NCBI RefSeq assembly: GCF_000739635.1
Contig: NZ_BATQ01000093.1
Location: 1-64,000, forward strand
DNA from: Verrucomicrobium sp. BvORR034
Lineage (GTDB): Bacteria > Verrucomicrobiota > Verrucomicrobiia > Verrucomicrobiales > Verrucomicrobiaceae
Length of the DNA stretch: 64,000 nucleotides
Direction of reading: 5' to 3'
In this document: positions 45,404-56,126 of the stretch, piece by piece
How the letters are laid out: every line of letters starts with the position of its first letter
Position numbering within the stretch: the stretch's first letter is position 1
The notes under the pieces: generated by a model
The model's database searches: none
What the model was told of the DNA's origin: nothing
What the model saw: only the letters and a program-made list of their open reading frames with translations
Translations under genes and position numbers: made by a program

Positions 45404-47893
45404 CTAGACCCCAACGTCACGAGAGGCGTTGCGGATCTCCTCCGGAGTGCTTTCTGGGCGGTTGAGCACCTGAATCAGGCTCCGCACCTCGGTGCTGCCG
45501 ATCCCGGGTTCCTGGAAGAGGGGGTGCTGCAGGAGGTCGGTGATGGGGGGGCGCATCTGGGGATCGGGATGGAGCATCTGGTTGATGAGCCGGTCCAAGG
45601 TGCCGACACCGCGACCGAGAAGATTGCCGGAGCCATCGGTTCCCAGCGGGCGGGCGGTATGGTCAGGATCGGTGCCGAACTGCAAAACCGCGTCGTAAAC
45701 CTGCTGCAGGTACCTGGGGTCCTCTTTGTCCAGGGTGGCAAAGAGGTGCTGGTTCCCGTGAAAGAGCTGGAAGGCGGTGATGCCCAAGGCCCAGGTGTCC
45801 GACTTGCCAGTCACCACGAAACCTTCCTCCTCACCGGGCAATGGGGCACCGGACTCAATGGCGCGAGAGGACGTAAGGACCTCCGGTGCGAGGTGCAGGG
45901 TGTTGTCGATGGGTTTCTCCTGGAACGTCTGACTGGTGCCCTGGAGGGAGAATCCGAAGTCGGCCACCTTGGCGCGGCCATCTTCGCCGACGAGGAAGTT
46001 CTCCGGCTTGATGTCGAGGTGGAGCATGCCCCGGGTCTCCTGGACGTGTTGCATGCCTTCCAGCATATCGCGCAGCAGTGTCAGCCGGGCCAGGTTTGCT
46101 GACTCCGGGGTGATGTCGCCGCGCCGCTCCGCATCAGAGATGCGGTCGCCTACCCTGGCGACATCGCCGCCAGGGGCCAGCTCCATGGCCAGAAAGACGA
46201 GGCCGTTGGGCGAGAGGAAGGCCCCTTTGTATCCCACAATGTTGGGATGGCCTTCGCCGTGGGCGAGGTGGTGGCTGCGCGCTTCCCGGGCCGAGATCTC
46301 AAAGAAGGGCTGGGCGGTCTCCTCATCCAGCATCGGCATGTTGGCAATGGTGGGGTACTTCAGCACGATGCGTTCGGTCTTCTCCACCTCTTTTCCGTCG
46401 ACCACTTCCGTCCAACGGGCTTCGTAGAGATCGACGATGCCCAATCCGCCCTGGTTCAAGTAGTCAACACGATGGTAGGTGCGGCCATTGAGCACGCAGG
46501 TCTCCGCATCCACCATGTGATTGGAGAGCTGGCTCACCGCGGTGATGTAGGCCTTGTTGATGAAAAGACGTACACCGTACGGGGCGGTGTCAAAGGAGTT
46601 CCCCAGGGCATTCTGCTCAATACCAAGGGTGGCGGCGAGCGCGCGATGCAGATCTTCTTTGAAGGCGGGTCCTTTGGAGGTGATGAAGCCCAGTTGCTGG
46701 TCCTCCGTGAGCTGACGGAGGTCCCGGGCCATGAGTTCACCCAACGTTTTGGAGAGGTGCTCAACGGCGTCGTCGTCCCGGTTGGCAACGGCTTCCTGGA
46801 GGAGTCGGCCCAGGCTCTGGAAGGTGTCTGACTGGAGGGTCTCCTGGGAGACATGGCGGAAGCTGGGATCTTCCAACGGGGGCGGAGCATCCTGGCCCAG
46901 CTGCACCTCGGTGTGGGGTGTTACTTGATGCGACTGTTTGCGAAAGGTCTCCACTGCAGAGGCGAGTCCGGTGCGTTCGTCTGTGGGGACCTGTTTTAGG
47001 CGGTCACGGGAGAAGGTTTCGATCTCCCGGTTGACCTCGCCTTGGGCGACCATGCGATTGGGATCTTCGCCGAGTTTGGCAAAGTAGATCTCCTGCTTGG
47101 CCCGGGCAAACTCATCGCCCCGGTCCACAGGGGTGGGGCGCAGTTGAGTGCGGCCTTCCTGGAGTTGCTTGTCGAGAGGTTGATAATTCTCCAACGGCAC
47201 GAGCTGACAATGAGCCTCGGCCAGACGAAGGTTCAGCGTGTTGTCCGTGCCTTCGGGATTGGCCCCTTCCAGGTGCAGTTTCAAGGAGCGGAGAGTTTCC
47301 ACCCGGGTCTCCACCGGAGCCCCTTCCTGCTCCTGCTCTTGCAACAACGCGGCAAGCCGGTCGGCCTCTTCAAGGTGCTTGCAGGGCAGGGTCTGGATCT
47401 CACTTTCCACGAACCGGATCATCTCGATGACGGGGCTGGCATCACCGTGGCCGTCCTCGCCGCGATGCCGCTGGATGATCTCGAGCTTGGCCTTGAGTTG
47501 ATTGAGCACAGGGAGAAGCTCTGCGTCTGGAGCGCCCTGGGACTTGAGCTGGTGGTACTGTTCCCCCAGGCGGATGGCGGCCTTGTGGTTGCTGCCAACT
47601 GTGGGATCGGGAGCCAGGTGGTTGTTGATCCGGTGAGCGAGGCGCAGCACTCCGTCCTTGAGATTCGCGTAGCGGGACGCCCTGCCAATGGCGGTCTTGA
47701 TACCGCCGCGGCTCAGCAAATTCTCCGTGGAGACGCGGTCTCCGCCCAAGCGGTTGTTAATGCTGTCCACCACGGTCTGCTGAGAGGCCCGGGCCGTCCC
47801 ATTGGGGCTGATCTTGATGCCGCCCTGCAGATCCTGCTGAGGGGCGTGACCAGGATTGAGATGCTGCTGCGACTGGGTGCGGGTGACGTTCAT
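45404..47893 (-). CDS. Large soluble Ser/Thr protein kinase with novel N-terminal region
   Basis: 829 residues. The kinase domain spans ~475-790: glycine loop QGGLGIVDLYEA (481-492), lysine in IVLKYP (K512), helix-C glutamate in AREARSHHLA (near 537), catalytic loop HLDIKPENFL (625-634; HRD changed to HLD), DFG (645-647), APE (669-671) and DTWALGITAFQLFHG. All key catalytic residues are present. The N-terminal ~470 residues are polar, mostly helical and Gln/Glu-rich, with no domain I recognise and no membrane segment, unlike most bacterial PknB-type kinases. It lies 115 bp downstream of the giant SIR2 gene on the same strand. It may be a signalling kinase, a secreted effector or part of a defence unit; the sequence does not decide. 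Confidence 0.85.
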   Translation of the reverse strand: MNVTRTQSQQHLNPGHAPQQDLQGGIKISPNGTARASQQTVVDSINNRLGGDRVSTENLLSRGGIKTAIGRASRYANLKDGVLRLAHRINNHLAPDPTVGSNHKAAIRLGEQYHQLKSQGAPDAELLPVLNQLKAKLEIIQRHRGEDGHGDASPVIEMIRFVESEIQTLPCKHLEEADRLAALLQEQEQEGAPVETRVETLRSLKLHLEGANPEGTDNTLNLRLAEAHCQLVPLENYQPLDKQLQEGRTQLRPTPVDRGDEFARAKQEIYFAKLGEDPNRMVAQGEVNREIETFSRDRLKQVPTDERTGLASAVETFRKQSHQVTPHTEVQLGQDAPPPLEDPSFRHVSQETLQSDTFQSLGRLLQEAVANRDDDAVEHLSKTLGELMARDLRQLTEDQQLGFITSKGPAFKEDLHRALAATLGIEQNALGNSFDTAPYGVRLFINKAYITAVSQLSNHMVDAETCVLNGRTYHRVDYLNQGGLGIVDLYEARWTEVVDGKEVEKTERIVLKYPTIANMPMLDEETAQPFFEISAREARSHHLAHGEGHPNIVGYKGAFLSPNGLVFLAMELAPGGDVARVGDRISDAERRGDITPESANLARLTLLRDMLEGMQHVQETRGMLHLDIKPENFLVGEDGRAKVADFGFSLQGTSQTFQEKPIDNTLHLAPEVLTSSRAIESGAPLPGEEEGFVVTGKSDTWALGITAFQLFHGNQHLFATLDKEDPRYLQQVYDAVLQFGTDPDHTARPLGTDGSGNLLGRGVGTLDRLINQMLHPDPQMRPPITDLLQHPLFQEPGIGSTEVRSLIQVLNRPESTPEEIRNASRDVGV

Positions 47894-48008
47894 GGTCGTG
47901 CTGCTCGTTTCGGGTACTCAGCCCAATTCGCCAAGGCGATTACGTCCATGACCTCTATTTTTCAGGTTTATGTGTCTCGGGTCTCGTGATGAAGGAGACG
48001 CACCACGT

Positions 48009-51000
48009 CTAGGGTTGAAGGGTGGTGGAGCTGAGAATGGCCTTCGTGAGCTCTGCCACTGTCGTTTCCCAGAATGCTGTGCCTTCTGGAGACAGGAGTG
48101 GGGTGTCCAGCGTTTCACCGCTCGAGGCAAACACAAACTGCTCCAGCATCCCTTCGATGGAATTCTGGTCGACCTGTCCCTTGGACAACCCCGCAAAGTT
48201 GGCGTGCCCCTGAAGCGTGCGGACAAAATTATCCGGGCCTCCCGGATCCTTTTCGTGAGATTGCAGCCTCTGGCAGGCTTTACAAAAATTCTGCAGCAGG
48301 CGAATGCGGTGGTAGGAGTGTTTCGTGGAGATGTGAACTGCGTGATCAAACCACGAATTCAGCTTCTCTCCGTAATTGATGCGTCCGCGGAAGACCAGCG
48401 ACTCCAAGGACACTCCTTCGGGATCAGGCGATTGCATGTGCGATGACACGCACCAGAACCGGAGGGACAGCAGCCGCGACCACCAGGTGGTGGAACGTGA
48501 ACCCACTTTCAGGTAGCCTTCCGCAATATCCAGTTGGGAGACCGCATCATTGATCTTGGCCACATGCAGGGCATAGGCCGTCATCTTGTTGTCTACAGGG
48601 TCCTTTGAAAGGGTGCCGCCCAATTGCGGCAGGTGCCCGCCAACCATGCCAAGGCGGCCCCGCAGGTGTTCGTTGAAGTAAGCCGCATAATAGCGTGCTT
48701 GCACGAGGTCCAATTCAGCCCTTCTCAGGTGCACCACCGCATTCATCGCCGACACCTCCTGGGCAGGGGCTTGTTTTAGAAAAAACGTTGCTTCAGTCAG
48801 CCGCCGCTGGGCTTCCGAAAACCGGCCCAGATGCCCAAGGGCCAAGGCGTAGTTGACGTGAAACTCAAAGCGAAGTGCCAGCTCCCCCCGGAGGCTGCCG
48901 ACGGGCATGTGCGCGAGCAAGTCGATGACAAGGTTGCAACAAACCGTGGTGGCAAGCCAATGATGGAGAAACTCTGGCGGTGCAGTTCCGTGGGGATTCC
49001 GGTCCTCAATCCGTTGTTTGAGTTTGGCCACACGAATGTTCCAGACAACCAGCGGGAGCATGGTTTCCCGGACGAAATCGAGGAATCCACTCTGGGACAG
49101 TCTAAGAGTGCTCAGGAAGGTCTCGCGCATGGCGAAAAACACCTTCCGACGCTCGGACGGGTCTGTCGCCAGGTGGCCGGCGGTGCCCAGCCCGAGAAGA
49201 TTGATGGCAGATTCACTCAATTGACTTTCACCGCTCTTGGTTTTGTCGTCACGATGTGTCGAAAGATACCCCTCGATGGAGGAACGGAGGACAGCTGCGG
49301 TCAAGGAAGGTTTGCCGTGGATCCGGTAGTCCTCCGCATGCCAGGGATCAACACGTAGGAGGCGGTCCCCTGACGCCGGGTATCCACTGGAGACGACGTC
49401 ATGACGGCCACCGTCACCGGGCAGATAGCCCATTTCCCCACTCTCGATGCGCAGGCGGAGCTGAATGCGGTGTCCTGCATCAAGGAGCTCCAGAACGAGG
49501 GGGCTGAAGGTCGTCTGCAGGTCATTCAACAAGCTCAACTCTTCACCGGTAAGCGGATACATCTTGGGACCAAAAACCAGAGGAGCAAGCCAACCAGTCG
49601 TCTTTTGGGACCAGTCCGGGCCCAGGTTCACGGCGTCGAGAAGATTCTCGCGGGCAAACATGCCGATGATGGCGTCCGTTTGGGTCCAATACGCGAGGGC
49701 CTTCCATGCAACCATCATGGTCTTCACTGCCTTGAGAAGAGAGATGCGAAGCAGGTCAGTTCGATAGAGCAGGAGTTCCCTGCGATAGGCAGGATCGTTC
49801 ACCCCACCGCGTTGAGCACGGAATTGTTCCAGATGAGTGTTGGTGGCATCTCGCAGATGCCTGATGGCGCAGAAGCGGTGGTAGAGCGACTCGATGACCG
49901 TCGAAACGTGTTCGCTTGAGTAGAATGCGTGCAGGAACCATTCTCCAATCCAGTAGTGGATGGAGCTTCTGTAGCACCGCATCTGCACCTGATCCTCGTC
50001 TTGCTCGACACCCAGCAAGTCGATCAGGGGTTGTCGCACGTCGGCGTACATCCACAGGTAACCACCCGTCTTCCGGTGCATGACCCCGCCATTCACGAGC
50101 TGGTCAGTCCACTGTTCTGTGGTGGCGTAGCGCTTCTCATCATTGTCACTGAATGCCGTGTTGAACATGTCGGGACAAAGAACCGCTGCGTGAGAAATGC
50201 GCGATGCCGGATGACGCGATTGGCGAAACAGGCAGAGGCTGTAAAGGAACCGGAGTCGTTCGGTTGGCTGGTCTCCCTTGAGGAACTCCTGGATCTTGTG
50301 GAAACGGCTGGGCGCTTTCAGAGCGCTGCCATGCCAGCTGTCATCGGTCAGCTTCCCTTTGTGATCAGCACCAATCACGAAAAACCGGTTCTCCAGTTTG
50401 TTACCCCGGATGTTCGAGTCCCAGTTGGTCCATCTGGCAGTCTCCAAGGATGCCAGGTCACCACCTTTGGCTTCGACACTCTTCCGCACAAAGTTTTGTC
50501 GTAGCTGAAACTTCCTGTGCCTCGCCTGGGTGTATGGCAAGACAACCACAGAGACCTTGCATTGCAAAAGCGCGGTAATGAAATGATTCAATGCGCGAAA
50601 TTCCTCCGGGTTGGTCTCCGCCCAGGTAATGTTTTTCCAACCGGCACAGCTGCCGGGAGTGTTGCGATCATAGATGAAGATCACCCACTCCTGGCCCGAG
50701 GCATCAAAGTACTGGCTGAAGAGGTCTTTGATCCGGTTTGTCAGCATCGGCAGACTTTCGTCGGTCAGATCGCTTTCATTGATGGTCAAGTTTGCATGCG
50801 TTGCGTCAAAGCGCCCCAGTCTTAACGCCATGAGGGACAGGCATTCCGTGGCCAGTGCAGATGGGGTTGCAAAATCTTCCGACTCAAGCCACAGACATTC
50901 CCGGTACTGTCGCTGCAGCGTCTCATAGAGCCGCTGCATGATGGGGGACACTCCAGAAAAGGTATCAATAACCAATGCCTGCCCGCACCAATCCTTGGCT

Positions 51001-52865
51001 GGCATCTTGGAGGCAGGGGTGTTGCCCGGAACCGCAGTCCAACGAGCCCACTGCAGCTCGGTTCCTGCGACGTCCATTGCGCCGGGGAAACTGTAGAAGG
51101 TGAGGTCTTTAAAGTGCCGAAGGTTTTTCTGGGCCTGCCAGTTTTGGGCAAAGTCAATTTCCGCCGGTTTAAGAAGCTCGGCCAGTTTCTTGACGCAGTC
51201 ATCGATCTTCAGGTTCTTCAATTGGTTTTGAGCCGCATCCGAGTCGAGATCCTTGTGCCAGGCCGGAATGTGTTGCAGGAACTGGTAGGTGTATCCGGAA
51301 GGTGGAAGACGGTGGCTGACATGCTGATAGAGCTCATAAAGAAGCAAGTCCGTGTGTCTGGATTCAACGACATGCACCCGGCCGTTTCCAAGATGATCCC
51401 GAAGTTTTTGCCGGCAGTCTTCCGGACGGGTATGCGCGATCCAGAAGATCTTGACCTGCGGACGCATTCGGAGCACGGCGTTGAAATACTGGTTCATTCT
51501 TTCATCTGATCCCGAGCAACCCAGCACCAGCAGGTGCTTCGGCAGGTGTTTCGGCTGACGTTGCAGCAGTTGTTGCAGCACGTGGTTTGGCAGATGTTCC
51601 CGCAACTGCTGCTTGAGCTGGTTCGGCAGGTGTTTCTGCAGATTGGGCTCCTCATCCTCGAACTGGAGATACTGTGCCATGGTTTTCTGATCCCTCAACG
51701 ACGGGATGGTATCCAGGCTGAAGTCCGCACGGGTGTCATGTTGAGTGCCGTGAAGTTTGATCAAGGTGCGCTGCCCCAGGACGGTCATGGGATCTGGAAG
51801 ATTGCCATCGAGCGTCAGAGAGATCGTGGCCAAGGGGTATTTGAGGTCTTCAAATGACTCCTCAATGAGTGTATCAAAGTTGGTGGTCAGGTAGGTTTCG
51901 ATTCGTAATGGGCGGGACAGGTGCGCGAGCATGCGGTGGGTGAGGTTTGGCCGCCTGCCCTGCACAAGGTGAATGTTGAAGCTGTCAATGAGCCGTTGCT
52001 CGGTCTCCCCCCTCATTTCGAGATAGCCGCTGGGATGAAGGCGCAGGCGTGCCAGGAAGCCCAGGGCGGACCGCCAGTCACACAAGCTTCGCAGGCCGGA
52101 TTCCAGAATCGTGCTCGCATCAGACAAGCTATGTCCCGGAACCATCCCGTGTAGCGTCAGGTTGCGGAGGGCCTCTTTGCCATGGGCAACGCCCCACGCC
52201 GACAAGATGCGGGCGTCCTGCAGCTTGAGTCCATCCAGTTTTGCGTCGGCATTCCCATTGGCAATCATGCCCACCCACCGGGGCAGCGCTTCGTTGAGAT
52301 CCCCCAAAGAAAGCAACCGCGGCAGCAGAGGCCTCAGCAGCAGCTTCTCAAAGTGCTTGGGGTTGTTCAAATGATCCAGGCATTGTTCCACCAAGGACTG
52401 AAGTTCGAGCGCGGAAGGCTCGGGCAGGTCCCCATTCGATTCCAACTGGATCTTCCACTTGTTCAGTTCGATGCAGCATTTTCCGACGGGGTCTTTCCCG
52501 TCATCGATCTTGCCTGGAGCCACGATCCGAAGCAAAGCACACCGCAGGAACACGAGGGCGATCCATTGCACACAAACCTGCATTTGATCGTAGCGGGGAA
52601 AGTCAGGCCACCCATCACGGGAGAGATTCCGCTGGGGTCGCTTGTGCCCCTCGAAGAACATGTTCATCTGCTCTTTTTCAGTCATCACGCATCGGCAAAA
52701 CACGTAGGGCAGATATTCATCAAACCGGCGACCGATCATGATACCAGAAGCGCGGGACACGCCGGCGCCGCAAAAAACAGCGAAGCCCTCGCCTTTGTCC
52801 AGAACGCCATCAATCTCCTTGATGAACTTGTTGATCTCAGATTCCTGGTTTGTTTCAGCGCTCAT
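48009..52865 (-). CDS. Giant protein with N-terminal SIR2-like NADase domain and STAND-like layout
   Basis: 1618 residues. SIR2-like domain at ~25-510: NAD-binding FCGAGVSRASG (31-41), YLTTNFDTLIEE (325-336), LIKLHGT (368-374) and LLVLGCSGSDERM (445-457), the pattern of defence SIR2 NADases rather than deacetylases. After it, 630-740 keeps the order of a P-loop NTPase (LVIDTFSGVSPIMQRLYE in P-loop position, EWVIFIYDRNTPG in Walker-B position), but the GKS/T is missing, so it looks like a degenerate STAND/NACHT core. Residues ~850-1618 are long, helical, repeat-like and contain no catalytic motif; they may form a sensor. Base composition by eye is more A+T-rich than uvrA next door. Domain order recalls SIR2-STAND (Avs5-type) antiphage proteins, but the size is unusual. 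Function is inferred. Confidence 0.82.
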   Translation of the reverse strand: MSAETNQESEINKFIKEIDGVLDKGEGFAVFCGAGVSRASGIMIGRRFDEYLPYVFCRCVMTEKEQMNMFFEGHKRPQRNLSRDGWPDFPRYDQMQVCVQWIALVFLRCALLRIVAPGKIDDGKDPVGKCCIELNKWKIQLESNGDLPEPSALELQSLVEQCLDHLNNPKHFEKLLLRPLLPRLLSLGDLNEALPRWVGMIANGNADAKLDGLKLQDARILSAWGVAHGKEALRNLTLHGMVPGHSLSDASTILESGLRSLCDWRSALGFLARLRLHPSGYLEMRGETEQRLIDSFNIHLVQGRRPNLTHRMLAHLSRPLRIETYLTTNFDTLIEESFEDLKYPLATISLTLDGNLPDPMTVLGQRTLIKLHGTQHDTRADFSLDTIPSLRDQKTMAQYLQFEDEEPNLQKHLPNQLKQQLREHLPNHVLQQLLQRQPKHLPKHLLVLGCSGSDERMNQYFNAVLRMRPQVKIFWIAHTRPEDCRQKLRDHLGNGRVHVVESRHTDLLLYELYQHVSHRLPPSGYTYQFLQHIPAWHKDLDSDAAQNQLKNLKIDDCVKKLAELLKPAEIDFAQNWQAQKNLRHFKDLTFYSFPGAMDVAGTELQWARWTAVPGNTPASKMPAKDWCGQALVIDTFSGVSPIMQRLYETLQRQYRECLWLESEDFATPSALATECLSLMALRLGRFDATHANLTINESDLTDESLPMLTNRIKDLFSQYFDASGQEWVIFIYDRNTPGSCAGWKNITWAETNPEEFRALNHFITALLQCKVSVVVLPYTQARHRKFQLRQNFVRKSVEAKGGDLASLETARWTNWDSNIRGNKLENRFFVIGADHKGKLTDDSWHGSALKAPSRFHKIQEFLKGDQPTERLRFLYSLCLFRQSRHPASRISHAAVLCPDMFNTAFSDNDEKRYATTEQWTDQLVNGGVMHRKTGGYLWMYADVRQPLIDLLGVEQDEDQVQMRCYRSSIHYWIGEWFLHAFYSSEHVSTVIESLYHRFCAIRHLRDATNTHLEQFRAQRGGVNDPAYRRELLLYRTDLLRISLLKAVKTMMVAWKALAYWTQTDAIIGMFARENLLDAVNLGPDWSQKTTGWLAPLVFGPKMYPLTGEELSLLNDLQTTFSPLVLELLDAGHRIQLRLRIESGEMGYLPGDGGRHDVVSSGYPASGDRLLRVDPWHAEDYRIHGKPSLTAAVLRSSIEGYLSTHRDDKTKSGESQLSESAINLLGLGTAGHLATDPSERRKVFFAMRETFLSTLRLSQSGFLDFVRETMLPLVVWNIRVAKLKQRIEDRNPHGTAPPEFLHHWLATTVCCNLVIDLLAHMPVGSLRGELALRFEFHVNYALALGHLGRFSEAQRRLTEATFFLKQAPAQEVSAMNAVVHLRRAELDLVQARYYAAYFNEHLRGRLGMVGGHLPQLGGTLSKDPVDNKMTAYALHVAKINDAVSQLDIAEGYLKVGSRSTTWWSRLLSLRFWCVSSHMQSPDPEGVSLESLVFRGRINYGEKLNSWFDHAVHISTKHSYHRIRLLQNFCKACQRLQSHEKDPGGPDNFVRTLQGHANFAGLSKGQVDQNSIEGMLEQFVFASSGETLDTPLLSPEGTAFWETTVAELTKAILSSTTLQP

Positions 52866-53183
52866 TGTGAAATGGGTGGACCTTGAACCGGTGGAAAATT
52901 TCAGCCGCAGTCGAAGTGTACTTGGATGCAGTGGAAAAACTTGCTCTTATTCTACAGGATGGGCAATCCACGTGCGCAAGCGTTTTTTTCCTTGTGAACA
53001 CCTGAAGATTTAGTGTCGCGGTTGGTCCGTAATGTGCTTGCGCGCACTCGCTGGTGCCGCTGAGACGCGGCTGCGGGATTTCGCGGAGAATATCCGCAAT
53101 CACCATGTCCTGGTGTCCTCGCCAGCGCGGCCGCGAGCTCCCGGTCCGTCCGTCGCCATGCCGGACAACGTGCAGGGCCAGCG
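52866..53183. other. Intergenic region upstream of the SIR2-like gene
   Basis: A 318-bp gap between the uvrA stop and the SIR2-like start, both on the minus strand. The half next to the SIR2-like gene (52866-53010) is A+T-richer and is the likely promoter region. The half next to uvrA is GC-rich; no convincing terminator with a T-run was found. Confidence 0.4.

Positions 53184-56126
<2,943 letters not shown>

Follow-up and report, generated by a model that had tools for sequence, protein, structure and literature searches.

The inserted gene

The window, a stretch of 64,000 nucleotides from contig NZ_BATQ01000093.1 of Verrucomicrobium sp. BvORR034, carries at 48009-52865 (minus strand) an intact ORF with an ATG start and no internal stop, which is present as a single copy in the 8.58-Mb genome. 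Its product combines a SIR2 domain, a STAND-like core (NOD) with degenerate nucleotide-binding motifs and a long helical C-terminal half (Table 1). The surroundings of the gene are housekeeping-like, with a kinase gene downstream and uvrA on the other side.

Table 1. Positions of the SIR2/pseudo-STAND gene, its domains and motifs in the window
Feature	Position	Strand	Residues	Remarks
Single-gene insertion replacing the 105-bp kinase-uvrA intergenic region	47894..53208			That region intact in two congeners
SIR2 - pseudo-STAND (NOD) - helical/TPR-like putative receptor	48009..52865	-		1618 aa
SIR2 domain at the N-terminus, including a family-specific inserted subdomain	51276..52865	-	1-530	Pfam SIR2_2 and PDB profile matches
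SIR2 NAD-binding motif AVFCGAGVSRASG	52743..52781	-	29-41	G33, G35, S37, G41 invariant
SIR2 catalytic motif TTNFD	51873..51887	-	327-331	N329 20/20, D331 invariant
KLHG with catalytic His	51747..51758	-		H372 18/20 (Y in L042, N in L053)
12-nt repeats coding an LP/QxL-rich insert in the SIR2 domain	51532..51642	-		Absent from homologs
Pseudo-NTPase (NBD) core	50466..50993	-	625-800	AF2 models, Foldseek, hhalign
Degenerate Walker A QALVIDTFSGVSPIMQR	50931..50981	-	629-645	Family consensus GxSGVS
Walker B position WVIFIYDRNTPG	50646..50690	-		Family WhhFLYGRNxPG; most members without the acid; R734 and G738 each in 17/19
Sensor-1-like strand VSVVVLPYTQAR	50514..50558	-		R782 14/17
Winged-helix-like part	50001..50273	-	865-955	GGYLWMYADVR; hhalign and wing hairpin in model
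Helical C-terminal half, candidate sensor	48012..49988	-	960-1618	Secondary structure of its first part; conservation
TPR-like helix pair FHVNYALALGHLGRFSEAQRRLTEA	48771..48878	-	about 1335-1360	TPR_4 E=0.6, below cut-off

In the congeners G654 and G646 (complete chromosome of 8,220,857 bp) the kinase gene and uvrA are found in the same order about 100 bp apart, and this region is 84-91% identical to the window at the DNA level. The SIR2 gene was found in neither genome. In the window 5.3 kb separate the two genes, and homology to the congeners breaks at 47893 and 53209. The GC content of the insertion is 0.562 compared with 0.614 ± 0.015, and its GC3 is 0.68 as against 0.75-0.80. The insertion comprises one large gene only, with no integrase and no flanking repeats at its edges. 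Most simply, the gene was acquired alone by insertion; the alternative, loss from both congeners, is less simple. A second clean empty site, for the homolog locus L026, was not obtainable, the whole neighborhood differing between species.

Because a single gene was inserted at an otherwise intact junction, its neighbors in the window are not partners. The downstream kinase gene (45404-47893, minus strand) was ruled out as an operon partner, since it adjoins uvrA in the two congeners that are devoid of the SIR2 gene. The kinase itself is an 829-aa protein in which a long N-terminal region lacking any Pfam match precedes the C-terminal Ser/Thr kinase domain; the syntenic copies in the congeners are 88-91% identical, and there are several paralogs, one of them at G000:C191.

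Homologs and their distribution

Relatives were gathered by family, class and phylum searches plus an alignment-based search of genome contigs; with a single sequence as query the contigs yielded no relatives, while the alignment query did recover them. About 21 homologs were obtained. Most align collinearly from end to end, and the alignments gave 22-28% identity with the window protein. The hosts are Verrucomicrobiota (the same family, Akkermansiaceae, Opitutaceae and others), Planctomycetota, Myxococcota, KSB1 and one gammaproteobacterium (Thalassolituus). Occurrence is patchy: in the family of the host 5 of 40 genomes were positive, one by a SIR2-only match, and in the class 8 of 384, several by SIR2-only matches. 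Viral contigs and phage and plasmid records yielded no full-length relative.

Some copies are broken. The loci L052 and L053 are split into several ORFs; in the Polyangiaceae copy (L053:8368-11937, plus strand) these are three consecutive ORFs with the first break inside the SIR2 domain. At L024:8343-10598 (plus strand) a frame change interrupts the homolog in the pseudo-NTPase region, beyond which residual core sequence is encoded in a different frame; this copy is a pseudogene or an assembly error.

The SIR2 domain

SIR2 was the sole Pfam model above cut-off in the window protein. SIR2_2 (PF13289) matched residues 323-488 with E=2.7e-11, and it matched in all eight family members scanned. 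The original prediction of an N-terminal SIR2 domain with hallmark motifs was borne out by four motifs, FCGAGVSRASG (31-41), TTNFDTLIEE (327-336), KLHG (370-373) and GCSGSDER (449-456). Its catalytic numbering, N328/D330, was one off: the Asn and Asp are N329 and D331, and the catalytic His is H372. G33, G35, S37, G41, N329, D331, E335, K370 and G373 are invariant in the tabulated family members; the counts for N329 and H372 in Table 1 take in L228. The spacing of about 290 aa between the GAG motif and TTNFD is unusually long because a family-specific subdomain is inserted. The 12-nt repeats of the window gene suggest that a loop of the SIR2 domain has recently grown by repeat expansion.

Searched against PDB sequences, the family profile matched SIR2-APAZ best (8in8, 2.9e-10) and also ThsA (8e-5). 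PADLOC matches were confined to the SIR2 part, led by the defense sirtuins ThsA, SIR2-pAgo and PDC-S65, and no whole-protein PADLOC model fits. NCBIfam and PHROGs searches of the window protein added nothing useful. In DSR2 the Asn/His pair is required for NAD cleavage, and it is conserved in the ThsA, pAgo-associated, DSR1 and HerA sirtuins (PMC11087589). Because the window protein retains Asn and His and its nearest PDB sequences are defense sirtuins, its SIR2 domain is likely a NADase. The systems of these nearest SIR2 domains are nevertheless different, as no APAZ/pAgo partner was found with the window protein, the Pfam scan detected no SLOG domain as in Thoeris ThsA, and the insertion holds no second gene that could be ThsB.

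One homolog deviates at this end of the protein. L042:1591-7233 (plus strand) has an N-terminal extension (residues 1-400) of two apparent class III cyclase-like halves fused to SIR2. The extension matches Guanylate_cyc with 2.1e-5, matches to Pycsar cyclases are weak, and by eye there are Asp motifs in the first half and an NxxAR-like motif in the second. The SIR2 motifs are SVNTD and KIYG with the His lost. Possibly a nucleotide cyclase replaces the NADase effector here.

A STAND-like core with lost nucleotide-binding motifs

Residues 625-800 follow the order of a P-loop domain: a strand, the glycine loop, a helix, the strand WLESED, helices, the strand WVIFIYDRN, a helix and the strand VSVVVLPYTQAR. 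At the P-loop position the window protein reads LVIDTFSGVSPIMQRL, and no NTPase model of Pfam matches it. The P-loop layout without GKS/T that had been noted at the outset extends to the family, since a canonical Walker A GxxxxGK[S/T] was found in none of the 20 members covering the site. L023 has a GKS tripeptide, but out of register: it precedes the site by a few residues, where the other members vary. The Walker B acid is replaced by Gly or Ala in 17 of 19 members. Compared with GxxGxGKS the loop GxSGVS resembles the loss of the GK pair. As the defect is family-wide, neither a sequencing error nor the decay of an individual copy accounts for it.

The fold of the core was approached with profiles and models. 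In hhalign the family core aligned with NB-ARC/NACHT proteins of the same class with a score of 31.9 (P 0.003), while the reversed profile scored 11 and 30 column-shuffled profiles at most 12.4; no match to these proteins was obtained with the profiles of the SIR2 and C-terminal parts. Residues 865-955 aligned with the NB-ARC winged helix (P 0.003-0.01), and the wing hairpin is also seen in the model of a compact homolog. Thus this part, with GGYLWMYADVR, resembles a winged-helix-like equivalent of the STAND MHD/WHD region. The AlphaFold model of window residues 525-1080 (pLDDT 68) gave weak PDB matches, many of them P-loop NTPases, and Foldseek with the NOD model of the window protein itself returned nothing below E 0.06, i.e. 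no significant match. The compact homolog region, L055:3843-5162, was modelled with a pLDDT of 72 and a pTM of 0.71 and had 20 Foldseek matches at E up to 1e-3. Archaeal ORC2/Cdc6 (1.3e-5), Apaf-1 (1.7e-5), the apoptosome, eukaryotic ORC and a clamp loader were followed by ZAR1, NRC2 and the Avs5 filament, and the top 50 were all AAA+/STAND. In the core L055 has diverged to 20% identity with the window protein, and with TM-scores of 0.2-0.4 confidence in these matches is moderate. Structure prediction, which had been proposed along with the original prediction, hence renders the core STAND/NOD-like. Because the L055 model matches Apaf-1, ORC/Cdc6, plant NLRs and Avs5, we regard the core as a STAND-type NOD lacking canonical nucleotide-binding motifs; models and profiles support the fold class well, its detail less so.

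The closest known architecture is that of Avs5 (AVAST type 5), likewise a single protein with an N-terminal SIR2 NADase, a central STAND and C-terminal repeats. The family has the same domain order, the NADase Asn/His and the STAND fold (Foldseek of the homolog model; hhalign), and fold searches with the family models retrieved the Avs5 structure 9nc9. Yet the 9nc9 chains have about 768 residues, and the window protein is about twice as long; for the TPR/Sel1-type repeats of Avs5 it offers only a sub-threshold TPR_4 match. One could envisage a divergent Avs5-like SIR2-STAND in which nucleotide binds a rebuilt pocket (e.g. R734, R782 and the GxSGVS backbone) and the usual ADP/ATP mechanism operates. 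R734 and G738 are in fact nearly invariant, the GxSGVS loop is kept in most members and not obviously needed by a pure scaffold, and for SAMD9 NTP binding has been proposed even though the lysine is missing (PMC5445408). However, immunity by PaAvs5 is abolished when Gly362 or Lys363 of Walker A is changed to Ala (PMC12931631), while in the family the canonical Walker A is lost throughout and the Walker B acid in most. We therefore consider an Avs5-like nucleotide switch unlikely and do not file the family under Avs5, as the Walker A essential in PaAvs5 is absent; the initial notion of a distinct type gains support relative to Avs5. No Avs model was among the PADLOC matches of the window protein up to E 10, coverage of all Avs5 clades by PADLOC not being assured.

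The C-terminal half

The long helical C-terminus of the original prediction is upheld as far as it was modelled (to residue 1080). Family conservation drops toward the C-terminus, and the TPR-like motif near 1335-1360 is kept across the family despite its low Pfam score. By analogy with other STAND proteins, residues 960-1618 may be the sensor. The roles could be reversed, with the inactive STAND core sensing by binding nucleic acid and the helical part being structural only. For iSTAND and iSTAND2, bacterial STANDs with similarly eroded NTP-binding motifs from predicted conflict systems (PMC7159879, PMC8195603), the sections cited here predict that the inactive modules are nucleic-acid receptors (PMC8195603), and DNA-binding ORC/Cdc6 is among the closest fold matches of our family. 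But iSTANDs are part of MoxR-vWA ternary systems, and those sections describe no SIR2-led single protein; MoxR and vWA genes were not seen with the window family, the insertion being one large gene and the partly identified neighbors of homologs being unshared. Furthermore, the C-terminus is the more variable part of the family, as expected of a sensor. A nucleic-acid-sensing core thus appears very unlikely to us, and we favor the C-terminal half as the sensor.

Neighborhoods of the homologs

An all-against-all blastp of neighboring genes revealed no conserved partner gene in the relatives, in line with the initial claim that a known partner is absent. Defense-type neighbors are found at 3-4 of about 14 loci, a figure that stands without a background rate and is supportive only. 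At L046 an OLD/GajA/AriA-like ATPase occurs with a TOPRIM ORF that ends 15 bp upstream of the homolog, a GajB-like helicase is located near that of L050 and a PD-T4-6/mad6-like kinase near that of L048. In genome G124 an LRR-Roc-COR-TIR protein (L026:4386-8090, plus strand) is encoded directly upstream of the homolog; with its TIR effector and Roc GTPase it has the look of a further putative immune receptor. Apart from this, a 782-aa ORF without a Pfam or PADLOC match (L048:6146-8491, plus strand) starts 14 bp downstream of the planctomycete homolog.

The context of the family is mostly neither defense-like nor conserved, many hosts are large-genome bacteria, and the phage role is a prediction. 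These points would suit a signaling or regulatory sirtuin outside defense, e.g. one that carries out NAD-dependent modification during development or under stress and has been spread by transfer. On the other hand, the SIR2 domain is nearest to defense NADases rather than deacetylases, the gene is patchy, single and gained or lost between congeners, and the layout of a NOD plus repeats is typical of immune receptors. A non-defense sirtuin is to our mind very unlikely.

Discussion

The general view of STAND receptors, whether from plants, animals or bacteria, is that they work as ATP/ADP switches. DSR2 has about 1000 aa and is not known to contain a central STAND-like module; its SIR2 domain is directly followed by the helical sensor. 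The window protein shares with DSR1 and DSR2 the SIR2 NADase type with the same catalytic Asn/His and a large helical part, but has a NOD-like core between the two. A combination parallel to ours is found in SAMD9/SAMD9L, antiviral animal proteins of >1500 aa with bacterial homologs, in which a SIR2-like domain is located beside an Apaf-1-like P-loop without the Walker A lysine (GGT/S), together with TPR-like repeats (PMC5445408, PMC13245274). SAMD9 differs by its AlbA_2 (tRNase) and OB-fold, for which no Pfam match at E up to 1 was obtained in eight family members. In the window protein the SIR2 domain retains the NADase residues and comes first, and the family consensus is GxSGVS instead of GGT/S, though the fold is Apaf-1-like. 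SAMD9 was not among the PDB sequence matches of the family profile, and the likeness rests on the described architecture. In the open-access literature searched we found no description of a SIR2-led bacterial pseudo-STAND family.

Taken together we think that the gene probably encodes a stand-alone, horizontally acquired immune receptor of SIR2 pseudo-STAND type, which would kill by NAD depletion without an ATP/ADP switch. In the resting protein the SIR2 domain, the NAD-cleaving effector, would be kept inactive. The pseudo-STAND, i.e. the Apaf-1-like nucleotide-binding fold with its winged helix, would serve as scaffold and conformational relay, and the helical, partly TPR-like half would detect an invader-derived molecule. 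Binding of this ligand may rearrange or oligomerize the protein and activate the SIR2 domains, whereupon NAD would fall and the infected cell would stop growth or die before phage release. The retained SIR2 residues, the defense sirtuins as nearest sequences, the STAND fold matches, the Walker A loss in 20/20 members, the clean insertion with low GC, the patchy occurrence and some defense neighbors argue for an immune receptor. Several observations count against it: viral, phage and plasmid records hold no full-length relative and therefore provide no direct link to mobile elements, defense neighbors are few and the window surroundings housekeeping-like, no whole-protein PADLOC model fits, the fold support comes from a divergent homolog with moderate confidence, and the TPR match is sub-threshold.

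The protein would be an immune receptor of SIR2-NOD type whose pseudo-nucleotide site is conserved. Its architecture is well supported, while NADase activity, an antiphage role and ATP independence are predictions. More tentatively, the homologs may constitute a cross-phylum NLR-like family without a nucleotide switch, in which a conserved pseudo-STAND controls the SIR2 NADase solely through ligand-driven assembly; it would be the bacterial counterpart, and possibly a relative, of the SAMD9 core with its SIR2 and lysine-less P-loop. If true, the family would be a clean system for asking if nucleotide is dispensable for signaling by a NOD, and it would bear on the origin of SAMD9-type proteins, which have a similar defect. 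It is also a NADase defense candidate that consists of a single gene, is transferable and fits no whole-protein PADLOC model.
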